64,000 nucleotides of DNA, taken from positions 310,001 to 374,000 of the forward strand of contig JAQJZZ010000007.1 of assembly GCA_030077755.1 (NCBI GenBank), read 5' to 3'. The notes below the pieces were generated by a model that worked only from the letters and a program-made list of their open reading frames with translations, was not told the origin of the DNA and ran no database searches. This DNA comes from Filosporella fistucella (Eukaryota; Ascomycota; Leotiomycetes; Helotiales). Made by a program: the position numbers and the translations under genes. Each line of letters starts with the position of its first letter. Within the stretch, counting starts at the first letter, position 1. This document shows, piece by piece, positions 28 through 57,579 of this stretch.

Positions 28-1091
28 TCAGTCTTCTTCTTTCTTCCTGTTATTCCGCCAAGTCCTCAAGCATTCTTTTCTCTGCCTCCTCGAACGCCTC
101 CAGTAAGTCTCATCCATTTCTTCGCCGCCACAGCTGCTACTTGTGACAGCATCAACATCATCCGCTGTACTTACTGTGAGTTCTGCAATTTGCTCCATGT
201 CATCCTCCCCTAGAACCACGCCGCCAGCAAAAATATCATCGGGGTGAAGCTGAAATGCATTCTCAGACATCGTCGCCTTTCCATCCCAGACTTTAAGCTC
301 TATCTTCAGTAACTGGAACCTCGCCGCCCAAACCATCCTTCCAAAAAGCTGGGACTCCACCTCAACTGATGTTCCCTGGTTTATTTCTACGGATGCTCCG
401 ACTGGCGCGGTGCACAGCGCTGTAACTGCTGCAGGATCGATTCCGAGTTTGAGACCGGTCTGCTTGCTTTTGACAGTATGGGACTTTGCATCCTCGAGCT
501 CAAGAAGGCCCGTCAACATCCAAATCTTGGGTGTCCTTGTCAAACCGGTTTTCATCATGATGTACTGACTCCTTGTCACCGATGTCCATAGCTGCAGCTT
601 AGACTTAGCCTCTTGATTTGCAAGGACTCGTGAAAGAAATATATTCGGGCTGGCCAGATCTATCAGCATATTGTGTGATGTTCTGCGATTTGGTTTACTC
701 TTTGAGCTCAATGCGACGCCCCTTCTCGGCCGAAATCACTTTCTTACTCTCGGTCCAAAACTGCGGACCAACTTCACCACCGCCAAGCACAAGCAGGTTG
801 ACCCCCTGGTTTCCATTCTTCGACGTGGTCAGATTGCCCTTCCAATCTCTGATATATGCCACATCGTTGAGCTCAGAGACACTTTAGCAATTAGAAATGG
901 CTCTCAGCTTCGACAAGATTCAGTGCGTTTAATGAAATAAGTGGTAGGTCCTACCTCAGGAGCGGAAAGGAGTGGTATTTTCTTTTCGTAGGATTTTCAT
1001 AACCTTCCAACACAAGGTGACCTAATGCTAGCTGTTCGGGCTCAAAGCCCCTTCCATATAGGAAATACGTCCCTTCTTCTGTATGTGGCAT
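28..1091 (-). CDS. Gasdermin-like pore-forming cell-death protein
   Basis: My model has three exons (955-1091, 748-881, 28-659) that join to an open frame of 300 residues, about the usual size of fungal gasdermin-like proteins. The N-terminal part carries the motifs YFLYGRGFEPEQL, YIRDWKGN and LGGGEVGPQFW. The middle part carries LASPNIFLSRVL and KIWMLTGLLELEDAK, followed by a strand-like segment MVWAARFQLLKIEL. This order resembles the beta-rich pore-forming domain of gasdermins. After the core comes an acidic linker and then a charged tail beginning near DETYWRRSRRQR. Known fungal family members (RCD-1, HET-Q1) are membrane-permeabilising and are activated when a protease removes the C-terminal tail. 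Here the head-to-head neighbour encodes a CHAT protease-like protein, which fits that scheme. The second intron (660-747) has a good GTAAG donor but a poor branch site; without it the frame breaks. Family assignment is from motif memory, not a search. Confidence 0.62.
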
Positions 1092-1532
1092 CTTGGAGAT
1101 TGAATGTAGAAGAAATTTTCGGTCGAGAGATATATTTGCGGCAGTTTGACGCTAAGTAAACTTAGTCTTAGAGCTGAGTTACTATTCCGCGTCTTCACAT
1201 GTGAGATTTCAGCCTCTACCTAGCAAAGACAGAGATGCTTTCCACCTCCGACAAATTGCAGCTGTTGCACGACCGTCGACCTGGAGGGCGTAAATATGAC
1301 CTATCATAGGGAATTTCTGCTGGCATCTTCCGAATGAAGCGTCGCATGACCGTCATAATTAGCTAATCCATATCTACACCCAGCTGAAAGTTTTACCACC
1401 CAGACCCAGCCATAGTCGTCATGGCCTTGTTTATCTTCCAAAAACTCCCACACCAGCCTGTCCCCAATGATTCTCTATGTCCGGTAAGTGCTAGAATCAA
1501 TTTCCAACTCACCATTATCTTAACCTGTATTG
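1092..1532. promoter_or_regulatory. Shared intergenic region of the divergent gasdermin-like/CHAT pair
   Basis: The two divergent genes are separated by about 440 bp between their first ATGs, or about 330 bp if the CHAT gene starts at 1421. The spacing is short enough that both genes could share control elements. No specific operator can be named. The right-hand part (1421-1547) may be a first exon and intron of the CHAT gene. Confidence 0.45.
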
Positions 1533-4500
1533 ATGGATCTGTTCGAGCTCTCACAATTATTTGGCGGTTCACTCTTTGCGGATGATTATCGAGGGGACTT
1601 CGAGCAGATATCTGCCTCAATCGAACGACATGAGACGAACAGCGGATACGGACACTCTCATGATCATCGTTTGCTACTCAAAAAGTTATTGCAGAAAGCA
1701 GTGTTTTGGACATTATCTGGAAATCATGCCAAGGCACGACAATGGCTACAAAGCTTGAGGCATCATTATGATAGCATTGACAGGCAGTGGGAGAGCCGTA
1801 TAAAATGCTACGAACTGCTCAACTTGGTCGATCGGCTCCATCCGCCAGCCATTCGGTTCCGCTCTCAACTCGGTAGTTCAGCAGCTATTATCTTTGAAGC
1901 TCAGAACCAACTGTTAGTCGACGAAATACTTTCATCCAGTTCAGAACATGGCAGTCTAGAACAGCTAGAGCTTTCAATGCCTCTTCGTATATACCAATAT
2001 AACCATTTTCTATGGACAATGCAATGTCAGCACCCTAAATATGCACGTCCGGAATTTGCATTGGGCAGCTCAGATATGTTGTCCCGTATTGGCAGCCCTT
2101 TTCCAGTCGGATATGTCGAATCAGCAATGCGGATGAACCTAGCTGGTATTGCTGGCTCACTGAAGCGACTTAGTTACGAGGCTGAGGTAGCCCGATTTCC
2201 GGAGATCCAAAACGATCTCCTAACAATGGTCATGGGGTTCTCTGAACAGAAACAAGATCTTGTTGGTGAGGCATTGTGCCTCATCAGCAAAGCAGACAAG
2301 CTAATTTCGCCGCCGTTCACGAGTCCACTTTCCCTTAACTTTATTGTTGAAGGAAAACTCACCGGAATGGTCGACGGTGTATGGGACTTCGAAGAGCCCA
2401 AATTTGCACTTCGAGCAAATGCAGAGGCTGAGTCTCACTACCAGAATGCCCTCCACCTGATGGAAGCCGCTGGAAGTCCGAGGGGCTGCGCCGCTGTGCT
2501 CTTGAGACAAGCGACTGTCCTCCACATGGAAGCGTTATTTCAAAGCCAGAGCCGAAAATCTCATGCCACGCAACAATTGAGTGAGGCGTCATCGAAACTG
2601 GAGGGGGCCCTTCTTGGATTTAGAGGAGACGAAGCCAATCTTTGTCTAGTGAACTGCCATCAAATCCTTCTCGAGATCAGCCAACATAACCTAAATGCGG
2701 ATGACAGTGCATTCTCAGTCGAGACCAGAGCGGCTGAAATTGGCCTATGGGGCAAGAGCGCTGAGAACACAGCGTTATCACAGTTCTGCGCACTTTTGAT
2801 GCTTCGATTTGGACGACGTATGTTCTTGGACCACTCCCACCTTGACGTCGCATTGCTCTGCGTTTCTTGTGCTAAGTCAGTTCTCAAGTCGTCCGATGAC
2901 AAACAATTTTATCTCCAAGCTATCTTGTCTGAGGCCGATTTGGTTCATTCATCCGGAAACTTTGCTCAGGCTGAGCTGATACTCCGCGAGGCTTGCAAAC
3001 CGTCATTGGATGTGGTTTTACAATATTTGAAAGAGCTTGGGCAAGCAAGCAGCACAGCTCAAACAAGCCTAAAAGGACCTACAGCGAACCTTCTTCTATT
3101 CTATGATAGAATTGCTTCCAAGATACTTATGAGTGCGGCTGATGCAAGCGCCCTGCAACTTTGGCGGGATGAGTATTCAAAATTGGAGTTTGAAGTAGGC
3201 GCAGATCGCTTCTTCGAAATGCCCCAAATATCTAGCTTCCGAGATACTGTTCATGCTTCAGGTAGCACGGCATCATCGCCATTGGATTTCGCCGCAATTC
3301 TGCAGGAACAAAATGAGAACAGGAGACTTGGGGAATTGTACAGCACGAAGTCTAATGCCGCCTATGCAGAACTCGAAATAGGGAATATCGATGGTTACGA
3401 TGGTCAACTTGCCAGCTTCCTGGCTTCAGTCGATTCCGTCAGAGCGTCGAAGGACCAAATTGCAACATTCAAGGTTATTGCTAATTCTTCGCTTGGATTT
3501 TTCAGCGAAGCCACTCGTTATTTCCCGCTAGCAGTTCCAAGACTCTTTGGATTGGAGGAGACAAGTGCCATCGAGACACTTCGTCGAGTCTCTTACCTCG
3601 GAGTGACTGTTGATAATTCCCTTCAGATGGATAGGAATCAGGCAGAAAGAGGAATTTCGCTGTCCTTTCTTTGTCATGACTGGACATCGGGACTAAGACT
3701 GTTGCACAACGCCAATCAATCAGTCCCTGGATACTTGAACATTAATGATGATACAGCAAGAGGCCACGACTGGAAGCTGGATTCATGGATTGGTGCTATA
3801 TACGAGCACAACAACCATTATGACGAGGCGCTCAGGTGGTATCTACGTGCACTGCATGTTATGGAGACGTACCGCAGCCGAAATGCGGATGCCGCCGCCC
3901 GGAGTGGATCTCAGTCGTCTATTCATGGTGCAGAGCTATTCTCCGGTTTAGTTCGAGTCTCTCTCAGCAAAGGGGCCCGCTCTTTACACTCTCGCCCAAA
4001 TTCCTGGGGACTTCCGACCAACAGCTGGTATGACCAGGCATTGATGTTCACGGAGCAGTCTTCAGCGAGAACGCTGCTTGAGTTTTTGATGTCGCAGCCG
4101 GAGCTTGTATATCAAAGTGAAAACGGTGCTGAAAAGTTGGAGCAATGGGCGGAGTACACTTATGTCAATCGTCAAATCACTGACCTGAGCACCATACCAG
4201 GTCAGCAAGAGTCGGAAGCGGTCAAGACAGAGTTGGCCTCATTGAGAAAGCAGCTAAACAAGATCAAGGACAATCAAGCAGTTGCTAGGCAACTGCCGAA
4301 AACGACACAAGCTTTGCTGCAAGCGTCACGTTTCAACATCTCCATGAAATCATTGCTCGCCGCTATTCCTCATAAAGCCGCCGTTATTGAGATTAACATG
4401 TCTCGGAGTGGCATTGTCGTTTTCTGCGTAACGCGTACAGGCATCCAACGGGTCCATCAGAGTGGAACAACCATCATCCAAATGAGGCGACTTATTTTGA

Positions 4501-5690
4501 AGTACTTGGAAGAGATTTCAAAGTATCAAAAAATGATTGCCAAACCATCGTCCCGGCTGGCCACTTCGACAGCGTTACCAATGCCAGACTCTGTCGAGGA
4601 TCTCAATTATAAGTCGGCTCGTATCTCGGACGAAATCATTGCCCCATTCACCAATATCATTGCTGAGAAAGAACATGTCATATTTGTTCCATCTGGGGAA
4701 TTCAATGTTTTCCCTCTAAGTGCTTTGATGTATGAAGGGCAGCCGTTGTTTGTCTCCAGAGCTGTCTCGCAGGTCCCCAGCTTTGCCACCCTGGCTCAGC
4801 TCACTTCGAGGGCTCTGCCTAAGACCCCGCTTGTCGTTTCGACAATTTTCAACACACATGAGCGAAAGAAGGTCGGTCCAATACCGAAGGCACCAGAGCG
4901 GTCACCGAATGCACTAAAGCCGATGCTGAATGCACCAGTACCCACTCCTATGGTTGGCGTGAGTGCTCTTCTCACGTCGCAACTTTTCGGTTCATATCCC
5001 ATCTACGCTCCTGATTTGACGGAGGAGGATTTCCACTCAACTTACAACAAGTCTGACATTGTGGTCTTGTCCACACATGGTATAAGAAGCCAGTACTCGC
5101 CATGGCAGTCTTACATCAAGCTTGCAAGAGACTTTCGGGTTATGGAATTAGTAAAATTCAGAACCCATGCGGCTTTGGTCATCTTTGGTGCCTGCTTGTC
5201 CGGCATGGGGCGTGTGACAGCTGGTAATGATATTCATGGATTCTCGCATGCTGTCCTTCAATCCGGTGCACAGACTTACATGGGTGCCCTCTGGAGCGTC
5301 AGTGACTACACTACCATGTTGCTACTGCTCGCCTTTTTCCGAAAAGTGGCAGACGCAAAAAGCAACATTAGTCTAGCAGACTGTTGGCAGCATGCGCAGA
5401 AAGTTCTCTATTCCCTCGACAGTACTACAGCTTTGGACATGCTCAAGCAAATTGAAAATGAATTGGATAGGCTTAAAGCCGATGGGGTGAGTACAGCGCC
5501 TCTCGGAAATGACGAGAATGGCAAGAGGCAGCTCTTGCGGATGATCAAGGATATGCAAGACGGGGTATTAAAGACCAACTTCAAACATCCGTACTACTGG
5601 GCGCCCTTTGGTCTGGTAGGCAACGGTGGACTATGTCTTTACGGAGAGAACTACTCTGAACTTCGAGCGGCTGCTGGCTCTGCGACATAG
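1533..5690 (+). CDS. TPR-CHAT caspase-like protease, probable partner of the gasdermin-like protein
   Basis: An uninterrupted frame encodes about 1385 residues. Roughly the first 900 are helical, Leu/Ala-rich repeats of TPR type, for example around the AEAESHYQNALHLMEAAG and WYLRALHVME segments. A charged helical segment follows, and from about residue 960 a CHAT domain (caspase HetF associated with TPRs). The CHAT catalytic pair is visible as His in VVLSTHG (about residue 1182) and Cys in LVIFGACLSG (about residue 1221); the later GALWSVSD motif is also typical. CHAT domains are clan CD cysteine peptidases, and TPR repeats usually sense a ligand or partner. The gene lies head-to-head with a gasdermin-like gene, so a plausible role is triggering pore formation by cleavage. 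An alternative first exon at 1421-1483 with a GTAAGT donor, spliced to 1548, would replace the first five residues with 21 others in frame. Confidence 0.82.
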   Translation: MDLFELSQLFGGSLFADDYRGDFEQISASIERHETNSGYGHSHDHRLLLKKLLQKAVFWTLSGNHAKARQWLQSLRHHYDSIDRQWESRIKCYELLNLVDRLHPPAIRFRSQLGSSAAIIFEAQNQLLVDEILSSSSEHGSLEQLELSMPLRIYQYNHFLWTMQCQHPKYARPEFALGSSDMLSRIGSPFPVGYVESAMRMNLAGIAGSLKRLSYEAEVARFPEIQNDLLTMVMGFSEQKQDLVGEALCLISKADKLISPPFTSPLSLNFIVEGKLTGMVDGVWDFEEPKFALRANAEAESHYQNALHLMEAAGSPRGCAAVLLRQATVLHMEALFQSQSRKSHATQQLSEASSKLEGALLGFRGDEANLCLVNCHQILLEISQHNLNADDSAFSVETRAAEIGLWGKSAENTALSQFCALLMLRFGRRMFLDHSHLDVALLCVSCAKSVLKSSDDKQFYLQAILSEADLVHSSGNFAQAELILREACKPSLDVVLQYLKELGQASSTAQTSLKGPTANLLLFYDRIASKILMSAADASALQLWRDEYSKLEFEVGADRFFEMPQISSFRDTVHASGSTASSPLDFAAILQEQNENRRLGELYSTKSNAAYAELEIGNIDGYDGQLASFLASVDSVRASKDQIATFKVIANSSLGFFSEATRYFPLAVPRLFGLEETSAIETLRRVSYLGVTVDNSLQMDRNQAERGISLSFLCHDWTSGLRLLHNANQSVPGYLNINDDTARGHDWKLDSWIGAIYEHNNHYDEALRWYLRALHVMETYRSRNADAAARSGSQSSIHGAELFSGLVRVSLSKGARSLHSRPNSWGLPTNSWYDQALMFTEQSSARTLLEFLMSQPELVYQSENGAEKLEQWAEYTYVNRQITDLSTIPGQQESEAVKTELASLRKQLNKIKDNQAVARQLPKTTQALLQASRFNISMKSLLAAIPHKAAVIEINMSRSGIVVFCVTRTGIQRVHQSGTTIIQMRRLILKYLEEISKYQKMIAKPSSRLATSTALPMPDSVEDLNYKSARISDEIIAPFTNIIAEKEHVIFVPSGEFNVFPLSALMYEGQPLFVSRAVSQVPSFATLAQLTSRALPKTPLVVSTIFNTHERKKVGPIPKAPERSPNALKPMLNAPVPTPMVGVSALLTSQLFGSYPIYAPDLTEEDFHSTYNKSDIVVLSTHGIRSQYSPWQSYIKLARDFRVMELVKFRTHAALVIFGACLSGMGRVTAGNDIHGFSHAVLQSGAQTYMGALWSVSDYTTMLLLLAFFRKVADAKSNISLADCWQHAQKVLYSLDSTTALDMLKQIENELDRLKADGVSTAPLGNDENGKRQLLRMIKDMQDGVLKTNFKHPYYWAPFGLVGNGGLCLYGENYSELRAAAGSAT

Positions 5691-7092: not shown

Positions 7093-7975
7093 ATGTCTTT
7101 CATTTACAGACTATGGCTTGCGATAGCGTTTCTGCCATTCAACCTGGCAGCTCCAAATCCGAGCAAGATTTCGTCTCGAGTTACAGGTGGTAGTCTCGCC
7201 GAGCCAGGAGAATTTCCCTTCCTTGTTGCCCCTCAGCGCAACGGGCTTCAATGGTGTGCTGGTACCTTACTCAACAACTTTACAGTACTTACCGCTGCTC
7301 ATTGCTCGATCACCATCCCACCTGAAGACGTTACAATCCGTGCAGGCTCCACTGTACGTATGCTCCGAGCCAGAAAACATGAGATATAAACTGATTGTGG
7401 GAATAGTACTGGCATTCTGGTGGTATTGTCGCAAATATCACAGAGATTAAGATTCATCCTTTATACAGACCCACATTGGGGCTTTACGAGTAAGTTCCCC
7501 CAACACCGAATTGTTTACAAACATATATTGAAACAATTTTCTGTATAGCGTTGCCATCTGGCATCTAGCAATCCCGATTCAGCCTTCAGAAACAATCAGC
7601 TATGCGTCCCTCGCCACTCAAGGCGAAGACCCAGCTGTTGGACTGAACGCTATAACGGTCGGCTGGGGCAACACAGCTGATAACCAGACCACGGAAGGAT
7701 CAAATGAGTTGAGATGGGTCAGTGTCCCGATTGTTTCGCGGCAAGATTGCTCTATATATGGCCAAGTCTCTTCCAACGAGCTTTGCGCCGGTGGAGAAGA
7801 AGGGAAAGGCAGTTGTCCGAACGACTCCGGTGGACCAATTCTAAATGCAGAAACGCGCGAGGTACTGGGTACGGTGCACTCTGGTGGTGGGTGTGGTCTA
7901 AAAGGGGTGCCGATTGTATATACCAATCTGGGAACTTTGGGCGACTGGGTGCGTCAGAATATTTGGTCTGCTTGA
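7093..7975 (+). CDS. Secreted trypsin-fold serine protease (family S1)
   Basis: Three exons (7093-7353, 7407-7489, 7549-7975) encode 256 residues. Residues 1-20 form a signal peptide ending near NLAAP; a short propeptide runs up to SSRVTGG, where chymotrypsin-fold enzymes are activated by cleavage. The catalytic triad is His70 (TAAHC), Asp115 (YDVAIW, built across the second intron) and Ser208 (NDSGGP). Residue 202, which corresponds to chymotrypsin position 189, is Gly rather than the Asp of trypsins, so cleavage after Lys/Arg is not expected; chymotrypsin- or elastase-like preference is an inference. The usual Gly just before Asp-Ser (position 193, oxyanion hole) is Asn206, which is unusual. 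The protein is probably extracellular and acts on host or substrate protein, or on the fungus's own secreted proteins. Confidence 0.9.
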
Positions 7976-53554: not shown

Positions 53555-55852
53555 TGCAATTCTTGCAGCTTCAGATTGTATTATAGAATTCTTGCTGTGG
53601 CAACTGGGGCTGCGGAGATGATAGTTCTCGTTAGGTCGTCGACGAGCAGATAACATACATCTTCTCGCACATTACCCAGAAACTTCCGAATACACATCAT
53701 TCCCATCCTTAATCTGCTGAAATTTCCTTTTCTTCCTGGAGTCCTCATTCTTGGGCCCATATTTTGCAACATTTTTGTTTCTTTTTATAATTGCTGATAG
53801 CAGGCTAGCAGAAGCAGGAGACTCTTCGCAAAGTTCCAACATCGCTCTACATAGTGCAGCCGTTGACAAACAAGCGGTGTCGCAGGTCAATTCGAACCTT
53901 TTTGTCTTTGATGTGAGAGATTCGGAGTATAGAGGGGCATTTACTCGCTCATCCGATGTAGCTGCATTGTCCAGGTCGAGTCGAGGGGAGAAACAGTTCT
54001 GGGTTTTGATCAGCCCTTATCCAGCGCACAAGCTAAACAATAACAACGGATGGATACTAACTTTTCGAGCGGTGTGCTTGGTACGAGCCATTTTGAGGTT
54101 TCAAAAAGTAATGGAAGTAAAGGCCCGAATGGGGGGATTGATTTACTTGTAAATAAAGAGCACTGCCTGCTCGGTGTAACATGAAAACGCCTCGAGCCCG
54201 TAATCAAAGCCCGGATACTTTGTACATCCAATAGCTAAATTGTTGATCACTAGAAGTTGACTGATCCAGAAGGATTCGTAGTTCCGAAGTGGAAGTACAG
54301 GCAGACTCCACAAGCAGGTATCTATCCTCGAGAGTGCGGGGAGAAAGAGGGTGAGACCGATTTGCTATCAACCATTAAGCCCAAAGAATACAATTATTCC
54401 AATCCCGACAATGACATCCATCATCAATTACCTTTCCTTGGCTCCAATACTGATGACCATTGTCATCAAACAAATCGCACAAAATTCGTGACGAAGGACA
54501 ACGCAGCGTTGGAAGGAGGCAAGGAGGGGTAGTATGAAAAACGACAAGTTGGAGACAATCAGTTTGTGGTAATAGATGACCAAGGAAAACATAAAATGGA
54601 AGGAATCGTGCTATTTTAAATACAGAATCGGGGATGGGGCAAAAGAAAGTATGACTTTGAAAGAAGAACAAATGAGTGGCTCAAACTTTGATGCAACGGA
54701 CGAATTTCAATTAATACAAATCAGGCAATTGACAAGAAGGAAATGTTACAGACCAGTTGCTCTCCCGTTATATAGCCACACACAATTAGGTGAAGCACTG
54801 GTATTTCGAAGTAGTCGCATGCCTGGGGCACACAGTTTATCGGAGATATCTTGGAGGATAGCATCGAATGGCAAGTAACTAAACTAGATATAGCCTGGAG
54901 GATTTCAGAGTAACTAACTCTGTCCATGCAAGATTCGGTGAATGAGACCTAGGTGAGGGCGAGATCTAAGCCATCCATGGATATTTACGTCCCTGTACCT
55001 GCTGAGCAATATCAAAGGTGACATTATTTCCTCCAGTTCTCTTTTCCTTCCTGGCAATCCCCCAAAATCTACTACAAGGACCAATATCCCCAGACACCAA
55101 TCATAGACGAAGAAGTTGAGAATTGATTCTTCCATCTTTTGTTTCCGCTCTGACCTTCAGACATGAGCAACTACTGTTCGGTGAGCAGACTGAGCGAAAT
55201 TATTCGACACATATGGAGGTATTCATGTGCTGGGGCCGTTCAACAACATATGGAGTACCCCACAGCCACTGCATAGTTTCCTCACCGAACAATACTCGGC
55301 GTCCTTGATGTGCTGCCATAAAAATTTCCAGCTGCAGCCAGCCCTGAAAATAATTCGTCGAAGGGCACATGGAAAATTGTTGGTTGTCGATGCTGCATGA
55401 TACAGGGCGACCAATCCGGGATCTTTGAAGTGCACACATCTATTTTGATTCACCTACGAGCTCTGCCAAGCTCCTCCACCGTAGTTTCGTTTTCCTCGCC
55501 GCAGATACCGTAGGTGAAGTCATCTCCATGATTCCCCCAGTTTGCATCCAAATGGGCTGACAGTGAGCCATATCGATGCACCTTCCAGCTCACAAGGCCA
55601 CACCGGCGTATCGTGCATAGGCTGCGTTGATCGCGTGGCACATGTAACATTTCCCTGTCATTAAGAACACAATGCTATTGAGGTCGTACTTAGCACAATA
55701 GATGTTTTTGTAGGCTGTGAGGCTGGCTCTACTCTCTTACTGAAACTTATAATACCGAAAAGGTCCTCTGCTGCCTGTCCTTGGGTTAATTTCTGACAAC
55801 TCGACTGACTTTCTCTCAATTTATCAAAAGTATTTGTCTACTCGACCTATCC
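53555..55852. other. 2.3-kb intergenic region, possible decayed sequence on the minus strand
   Basis: No supported gene. Minus-strand frames between about 55155 and 55690 are unusually open in several pieces (for example 55200-55439 and 55450-55650), but I recognise no family and no splice pattern joins them. Confidence 0.45.
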
Positions 55853-57579
55853 ATGACTCCATACGTATACTCACCGCTCGATCTGAACGAGGATAATATC
55901 CGACTCTTGAGAATCGAGAGAGGCTATCGATCCGATCCTATCAAATGCTGGCTCTTTGAATCTCCAAAAAAAGGGATTGAGTACAAAGCCTTGTCCTACA
56001 CATGGGGTGAATCTGGGCCTAAGGGGATCATTGAGATAGAAGGTCACCAGTTCGATGTATCAGAGAATCTGTACTCTGCTTTGAAAGAAATCCGCAGCCA
56101 ACACCATGACGTGATAGTATGGGTTGACGCAATTTGCATCAACCAAAACAAGGCAAACGAAAAAGGACACCAAGTGAAGCAGATGGGTACTATCTATAAG
56201 AGTGCTGTGGAGGTACTCATTTGGCTAGGCTCGAGCGACCATGGTATCATAAGCCTCATGGACTCCATCAATTGGATCCACCATAGTGCCGCTAGAGAGA
56301 AATCCAAAGGGATTGAGAAATGGCCTGATTTATGCGCGCGGTTTACGAAACAGCGATTTTTGGAAATTGGATGGGGTGCGTATCCAACACAAAAAAAGAC
56401 TCTTCAGCAGCTCCTGGGACATCGGTGGTTCCATCGAGTCTGGATTCTTCAGGAAGTTGCCAACGCCAGAGAGGCCGTAATTATGTGCGGATCCGAGTCT
56501 TGCCCCGCAAAAACGTTCGCTCAAATGCCTGCTTCTATGGAGTTGGAACTGCAAGCCGACGGGCATGTGCAAGCCGTGCTGGATATCATGCCCGGCTACC
56601 GAACGGCCACTTGGTGGACCACAAGGCGCTGTCTACACTTCCTTCTTTGGAAATTCGCCGAGAGCGAGGCTGGAAACCCTGTCGATAAGATCTACGCCCT
56701 GCTTGGTATTTCAGAGGATGCGAACAATCATCAAATGTTCTACCCGAATTACGAAAAAGACGAAACCAGGGTTCTTCAAGATACCTTATCGTTCTTGTTG
56801 TTCAAGCAAGTTCTCTGGATGACAGCTATGCCTTTCCGATCATCGGGTTCCAAGAGCTGCGACACTCTATAACTGAACTGGCCGTTGAAACGCTCGGATG
56901 GACACTGACCGAAGAAAACATCCAGAATGATGCCGCACGCCGAACGGCGGAGAAGGTCGTTGAATTAATCAACCAAGGACAATTCAAACGAACGGATCTG
57001 TTGTCTGCTCTTGATGGGGTGCTTGCAAAAGATAGCGATCGAATGCGGAGTTTCTTAAGTGATCAAAATTTGGATGACAAAGGGGACATTAGCCTTATTC
57101 TGACATTTGAAGGGAGGGTTGCTACTTTGACAATTAAGTATAAAGAGGGGGTTCGAGTTGATCGAAGCTTTACCTTCCCTCAGCAATCGTTCAGAGTTGG
57201 AAGACACTCAGTGGAGCTCAAAACGCCTACTGTCCTTGAGAGCCTCAAGTTGGTGCCAGTGCCATTCGGAGAAAATGAAAACATGGCAAGGACGATACTT
57301 CAGTTGAAGTTGAGTGGGGCATCGAAAGAAGAGTTGATGAGGGCATATACCTGGGCCGGTGATGTTGAAGGTGTTCGGGCGCAGCTTGATGCTGGCGCTG
57401 TGATAGACGGGGCAGACAGCAATGGCTCAACTGCACTTCACTTGGCTTCAAGGCGTGGTGATGAAAATATTGTTGCGTTATTGATTGCTCAAGGGGCAAA
57501 TGTGAATAAGGAGGATGAAAGTGGTTGTACACCACTTCACGTGGCTTCTGCTGGCCCAGGGGGCATAGAGGTGAACTAG
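55853..57579 (+). pseudogene. HET-domain/ankyrin protein gene with a frameshift
   Basis: The frame from 55853 encodes a good HET domain: EYKALSYTWGESGPKGIIEI, VWVDAICINQNKANEKGHQV, EVLIWLG and RWFHRVWILQEVA, then WKFAESEAGNPVDKIYALLG. Near 56800-56825 the frame changes: the first frame stops at 56872, while the adjacent frame continues with SLDDSYAFPIIGFQELRHS, the expected next segment, and runs to 57579 with two ankyrin repeats (STALHLASRRGDENIVALL, CTPLHVAS). No GT-AG intron of proper size and phase bridges the break. Just after 57579 a third frame seems to carry a further ankyrin-like piece (LVLLVRYG), so a second break is likely. Intact HET proteins trigger cell death in non-self recognition. 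A sequencing error cannot be excluded. Confidence 0.7.

Follow-up and report, generated by a model that had tools for sequence, protein, structure and literature searches.

A gasdermin-like gene facing a CHAT protease gene in Filosporella fistucella: a probable two-gene cell-death module and the recurrence of such pairs in one genome

The left end of a 64,000-nucleotide stretch of the Filosporella fistucella genome, referred to here as the window (C6:310001-374000 in the 45.8 Mb, 19-contig genome that was searched), carries two divergent genes, a minus-strand gene at 1091-28 facing a plus-strand gene at 1533-5690. The question raised by this locus is whether the two genes form a cell-death switch, as proposed in an original prediction made from the sequence letters, which read the first product as a gasdermin-like pore protein and the second as a protease with a CHAT domain. 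The analysis described here leads to the same view: the pair is very probably a two-gene fungal cell-death module in which the CHAT protease activates the gasdermin. The predicted spacing of about 440 bp was accurate, as 441 bp lie between the start codons at 1091 and 1533, placing a protease gene less than 10 kb from a gasdermin gene. This shared intergenic region (1092-1532) presumably functions as a bidirectional promoter. A bacterial promoter scan of the spacer was set aside as not applicable to a fungus.

The association between the two gene types is repeated across the genome. The genome search returned ten CHAT matches, all counts being lower bounds, and at eight of these a gasdermin-like gene lies opposite in head-to-head orientation: C6 (the window), C1, C16, C9, C3:12k, C4:457k, C10:1209k and C4:712k. 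Viewed from the other side, a CHAT gene lies opposite eight of the nine gasdermin-like loci detected at E-values up to 1; a weak tenth candidate (C13:719k, E 1.3) was left out of the counts. In the other seven pairs, the intergenic gap ranges from about 0.3 to 1.7 kb (324 to 1,709 bp), measured on the CHAT side mostly from where the open frame begins and not from a start codon; the same applied to the gasdermin side on C1 before a hand recount, which gave about 1.1 kb. For the two remaining CHAT matches, C6:648k and C10:336k, no gasdermin partner was found with the gasdermin profiles in one 9.9-kb stretch each, and for C10:336k open reading frames (ORFs) of at least 150 residues were also listed in two flanking stretches. 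Near the ninth gasdermin-like locus, C3:2197k, there is neither a CHAT match nor, within 10 kb, an S8 subtilase match, and none of the 27 S8 matches in the genome lies within 10 kb of any of the nine gasdermin loci. The gene at C3:2197k (L018:4311-5285 (+)) has three exons and belongs to the gasdermin group of the window. The 9.9 kb around it contain no CHAT gene, and its neighbours resemble, as judged by eye, metabolic enzymes and a permease.

The identity of the small protein was addressed through its family. Taken alone, it matches nothing in Pfam above cut-off and gave no significant hit by sequence in the PDB, and a profile of the three-member window group found nothing significant in the PDB; these results weigh against the proposed module. 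The best matches, MlrC_C in Pfam (E 0.06, below cut-off) and a transporter subunit in the PDB (E 0.82), were taken as chance. Pfam likewise gave no gasdermin model for six other family members (best DUF6671, E 0.041), and searching the PDB with the C16 or the C4:712k paralogue as a single sequence returned nothing up to E 10.

A wider family was assembled from paralogues within the same genome. Here, the window product found the C1 paralogue (E 2.1e-6) and, weakly, C3:2197k (E 0.028), the C1 paralogue weakly found the C16 paralogue (E 0.2), the C16 protein found C9 (7.3e-20), C3:6k (5.7e-13), C10:1208k (1.8e-4) and C4:453k (0.0014), and the C10 protein found C4:713k (E 2.6e-6). C4:453k, C10:1208k and C4:713k were spotted first in the neighbourhoods of CHAT genes and later recovered genome-wide. 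As a separate test of the weak link from C1 to C16, the six proteins that do not belong to the window group were combined into a profile. With it, the C1 protein scored E 2.1e-13, the protein of the window 6.2e-4 and the C3:2197k protein just 0.31, and the best of 9,000 shuffles scored E 1.9. In a profile-profile comparison, the window group matched the other group with a probability of 97 and an E-value of 8.7e-11.

The nine-member profile A5, which includes the last exon of the window gene, had Neurospora RCD-1-1 as its best PDB match (E 9.2e-6), and RCD-1-2 followed at E 0.11, just below an unrelated ribosomal protein (E 0.1). The profile search of the 28-1091 product suggested as a check of the original prediction was negative for the protein alone and for its group, and positive for this family profile. 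For an AlphaFold model of the full-length C16 paralogue with a predicted local distance difference test score (pLDDT) of 61, gasdermins occupied Foldseek ranks 1-8 and VIA ranks 1-10, with cholesterol-dependent and perforin-like pore proteins among the VIA rows from rank 11 on. Profile evidence on the family and a modelled fold from a paralogue thereby support the predicted membership of the window protein in the fungal gasdermins (RCD-1/HET-Q1 family), which had started as a guess from motifs. Other structural results did not contribute. The model of the nearest paralogue's exon, based on a three-row alignment, reached a pLDDT of 32 and was unused; in BFVD, one match below 0.001 (a phage assembly protein, E 7.4e-4), with mostly phage maturation proteins among the matches listed, was rejected as chance; and a search of a phage collection was negative and uninformative.

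According to a gene-model script, the minus-strand gene 1091-28 requires about three exons and two introns. The script listed ten such models that are open, with lengths of 295-313 residues, and the exon junctions are uncertain for this reason. In one of these models, exon 1 (955-1091, MPHTEEGTYFLYGRGFEPEQLALGHLVLEGY...) begins with the start codon at 1091 and has similar first exons in two paralogues. Exon 2 (699-881) follows from the gene models and alignment with paralogues, with approximate junctions. Exon 3 (28-649, with a possible alternative 5' boundary at 659), placed by the gene models and included in profile A5, encodes the second half of the pore-forming domain, including the motifs PKIWMLTGL and GRMVWAARF, as well as the C-terminal tail. 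This tail, the last 70 residues after the core (28-240 on the minus strand), contains 18 D/E and 11 K/R and consists of an acidic linker (LGEDDMEQIAELTVSTADDVDAV...GGEEMDETYW) and a basic end of uncertain frame. D/E outnumber K/R in the last 70 residues of all eight paired gasdermins, where the end of the window tail is subject to the same frame uncertainty. The final 20 or so codons are basic in the reported frame and acidic in another frame of the same bases, which leaves the exact C-terminus uncertain; the alternative acidic stretch resembles the tails of paralogues. The charged tail of the original prediction therefore depends on the frame and is softer than claimed.

The partner gene is an open ORF with an ATG at 1533 that needs no intron and encodes 1385 residues (1533-5690, plus strand). 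PF12770 matches its residues 1032-1364 (4626-5624, plus strand) with an E-value of 3e-31 and 109.4 bits against a cut-off of 24, and the genome-wide search recovered the domain at the same location. The His of the STHG motif (codon 5076-5078) and the Cys of the GACLSG motif (codon 5193-5195; both positions counted by hand) align with the catalytic columns of other CHAT domains, confirming the CHAT (caspase-like) domain and the intact His-Cys pair, which had been read from the letters as a CHAT domain with both residues present. The description as a TPR protein ending in a CHAT domain needs more caution, as the C-terminal CHAT domain is clear and the roughly 900 N-terminal residues gave weak TPR matches only (TPR_1, E 0.0017, below the curated Pfam cut-off). 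Neither NACHT nor NB-ARC was found in this protein by Pfam at E-values up to 1.

The catalytic His and Cys are kept in all eight paired CHAT domains. Both are also retained in the unpaired CHAT of C6:648k, and that of C10:336k (L026:4510-5259 (-)) is possibly inactive because a Tyr occupies the catalytic His column. The partners differ in architecture. Those of C10:1209k and C4:712k look NLR-like, since an N-terminal CHAT domain is followed by NACHT/AAA matches, all below the Pfam cut-offs, whereas CHAT is C-terminal in the other six. Among these six, TPR matches are above cut-off in C4:457k and C3:12k, below it in C9 and the window, and absent in C1 and C16; for C9, the Pfam scan covered the 823-residue last frame. 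In addition, an ORF whose sequence resembles a HET-domain gene (L020:201-2552 (+), C9:1927.5k) was noted at a distance of about 2 kb from the CHAT gene of C9.

Gasdermin and CHAT-domain distances across the eight pairs are correlated (Mantel r 0.81), with 65 of all 40,320 permutations giving a value as high. The nearest relative is concordant in seven of the eight pairs, C10:1209k being the exception, and both trees split the window and C1 from the other six (99/98 and 100/99). One of the five inner branches per tree is well supported and three are open. The correlation is supportive of partners that diverged together and falls short of proof, because the Mantel and tree tests comprise just eight very divergent pairs with long branches, most inner branches are open and C10:1209k is discordant.

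From these results and the established biology of gasdermins, the following course of events can be proposed for the window pair. The gasdermin would be a latent pore-forming N-terminal domain that is kept inactive by its short acidic C-terminal tail. The large plus-strand product would be its activator, in which the N-terminal region, of repeat type, would act as the sensor and the C-terminal CHAT domain as the cysteine protease. The sensor region might detect a trigger, perhaps non-self after hyphal fusion or an infection, both of which are plausible. The triggered CHAT domain would then cut the gasdermin near the linker and remove the tail, and the freed gasdermin domain would oligomerise in the plasma membrane, leading to cell death. 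We infer the cleavage and its site, the sensing, the trigger and the resulting death from the gene content and from known systems.

Other explanations have to be considered. The pair could be functional with the gasdermin activated in another way. One example would be an RCD-1-like encounter with a divergent allele or partner, the role of the CHAT protein being to regulate or degrade the gasdermin. This is suggested by RCD-1 itself, the nearest solved relative found, which is activated without cleavage according to the accessible part of PMC12881547, and by the uncertain frame of the window gasdermin tail. It is nevertheless improbable, as eight head-to-head pairs whose CHAT domains all have the His and the Cys, together with the co-divergence, fit a protease-substrate relation, and a Podospora pair of this type is reported to act by activation. 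The same low probability applies to a decaying window copy, in which the tail has lost its frame and the death switch has ceased to work at this locus while other family members still function. The paralogue-like acidic stretch in another frame of the last bases speaks for this, but the gasdermin core is readable through three open exons, the 1385-codon partner is open, and the C-terminus may merely be spliced differently, given that the tails differ greatly among the eight. That the genes are chance neighbours, with a CHAT gene serving something else beside an unrelated small protein, might be argued from the missing Pfam family but is hardly credible, as a single locus has a 0.2 % chance of lying within 5 kb of any of the ten CHAT matches, and this proximity is seen for eight of the nine counted family members.

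Activation of the gasdermin by its CHAT partner consequently remains the favoured explanation, and the window pair is a well-supported addition to the fungal pyroptosis-like modules. The eight co-diversified pairs in one genome also provide a natural test set for asking whether each CHAT receptor cuts its own gasdermin only.

A further lead comes from the unpaired CHAT gene of C6:648k (L021:2235-5321 (+)), which faces a gene for a 291-residue protein (L021:522-1394 (-), C6:644021-644893). Neither a Pfam family nor a PDB match up to E 1 was found for this protein, and it is negative with the gasdermin profile. Its sole other match in the genome, C15:2132097-2132696 (E 3.5e-5), is separated by about 3 kb from a match to S8 subtilases (C15:2128297-2128965). 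The two loci suggest that this family may be a second effector family under CHAT or S8 proteases, repeating the exchange of CHAT and S8 partners known for fungal gasdermins. An additional type of effector could come to light through this non-gasdermin partner. A broader proposal is that the genome holds at least eight insulated and co-diversified protease-gasdermin switches, each CHAT receptor being matched to its own gasdermin, and that the same receptor type also controls a non-gasdermin effector family; taken as a whole, this is speculative and rather unlikely.

Regarding the remainder of the window, matches include HET-domain, Zn2Cys6 and PEX6, which together with the introns are indicative of a filamentous fungus. 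At 55790-57576 (+), two overlapping frames have HET-domain (E 5.2e-33) and ankyrin-repeat matches; by these predicted domains, the window holds a second gene of the incompatibility type. Beside the CHAT gene, the region 7093-7975 (+) resembles, as judged by eye, an intron-containing gene for a secreted serine protease of the trypsin type.

The original prediction knew of no description of this particular pair. No literature listing names the locus, within a search scope that omits most subscription journals; the kind of gene pair, by contrast, is already described, and the window locus is a further case of it, because PMC10197012 reports fungal gasdermins clustered with CHAT genes. In that survey, clustering with protease genes applies to about 80 % of the gasdermin genes of fungi, with S8 in about 63 % and with CHAT in 19 % within 10 kb, and dozens of NLR or NLR-like gasdermin partners carry CHAT; the accessible parts of PMC10989679 and PMC11138114 agree with this clustering picture. 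The CHAT-linked share of eight out of nine found here contrasts with those 19 % and comes from a search seeded with a CHAT-linked gene, so that S8-linked gasdermin subfamilies may have been overlooked.

The closest known arrangement is the two-gene cluster of a fungal gasdermin and a HET-Q2-like CHAT protein (Clave et al. 2022, as represented in the accessible parts of PMC12881547, PMC10197012 and PMC10989679). In both, a gasdermin-like gene adjoins a gene for a CHAT protease with a repeat-type or NLR sensor region, whereas the repeats of the window protein are weak in Pfam. RCD-1 of Neurospora crassa (PDB 8jyz, 8jyy) is the top match for the family in both sequence and fold, but differs in that two allelic variants pair, with no cleavage in the available account (PMC12881547). 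In hetB of Aspergillus fumigatus, a 1,327-residue CHAT protein is one allele of a heterokaryon-incompatibility gene; it is idiomorphic with a short protein, and a gasdermin role does not form part of the hetB account in the accessible sections of PMC11138114. HET-Q1/HET-Q2 of Podospora anserina share the principle proposed here, as a protease removes a short C-terminal fragment of the gasdermin in the partial descriptions available, although HET-Q2 is a subtilisin-like serine protease whose gene is idiomorphic with het-Q1 and not an adjoining CHAT gene. Bacterial gasdermins, as far as the available excerpts describe them, also combine neighbouring genes for a pore protein and a protease, and their structures are found at Foldseek ranks 5-6 for the C16 model; despite the bacterial host, the likeness to the fungal pair is one of gene context and fold.
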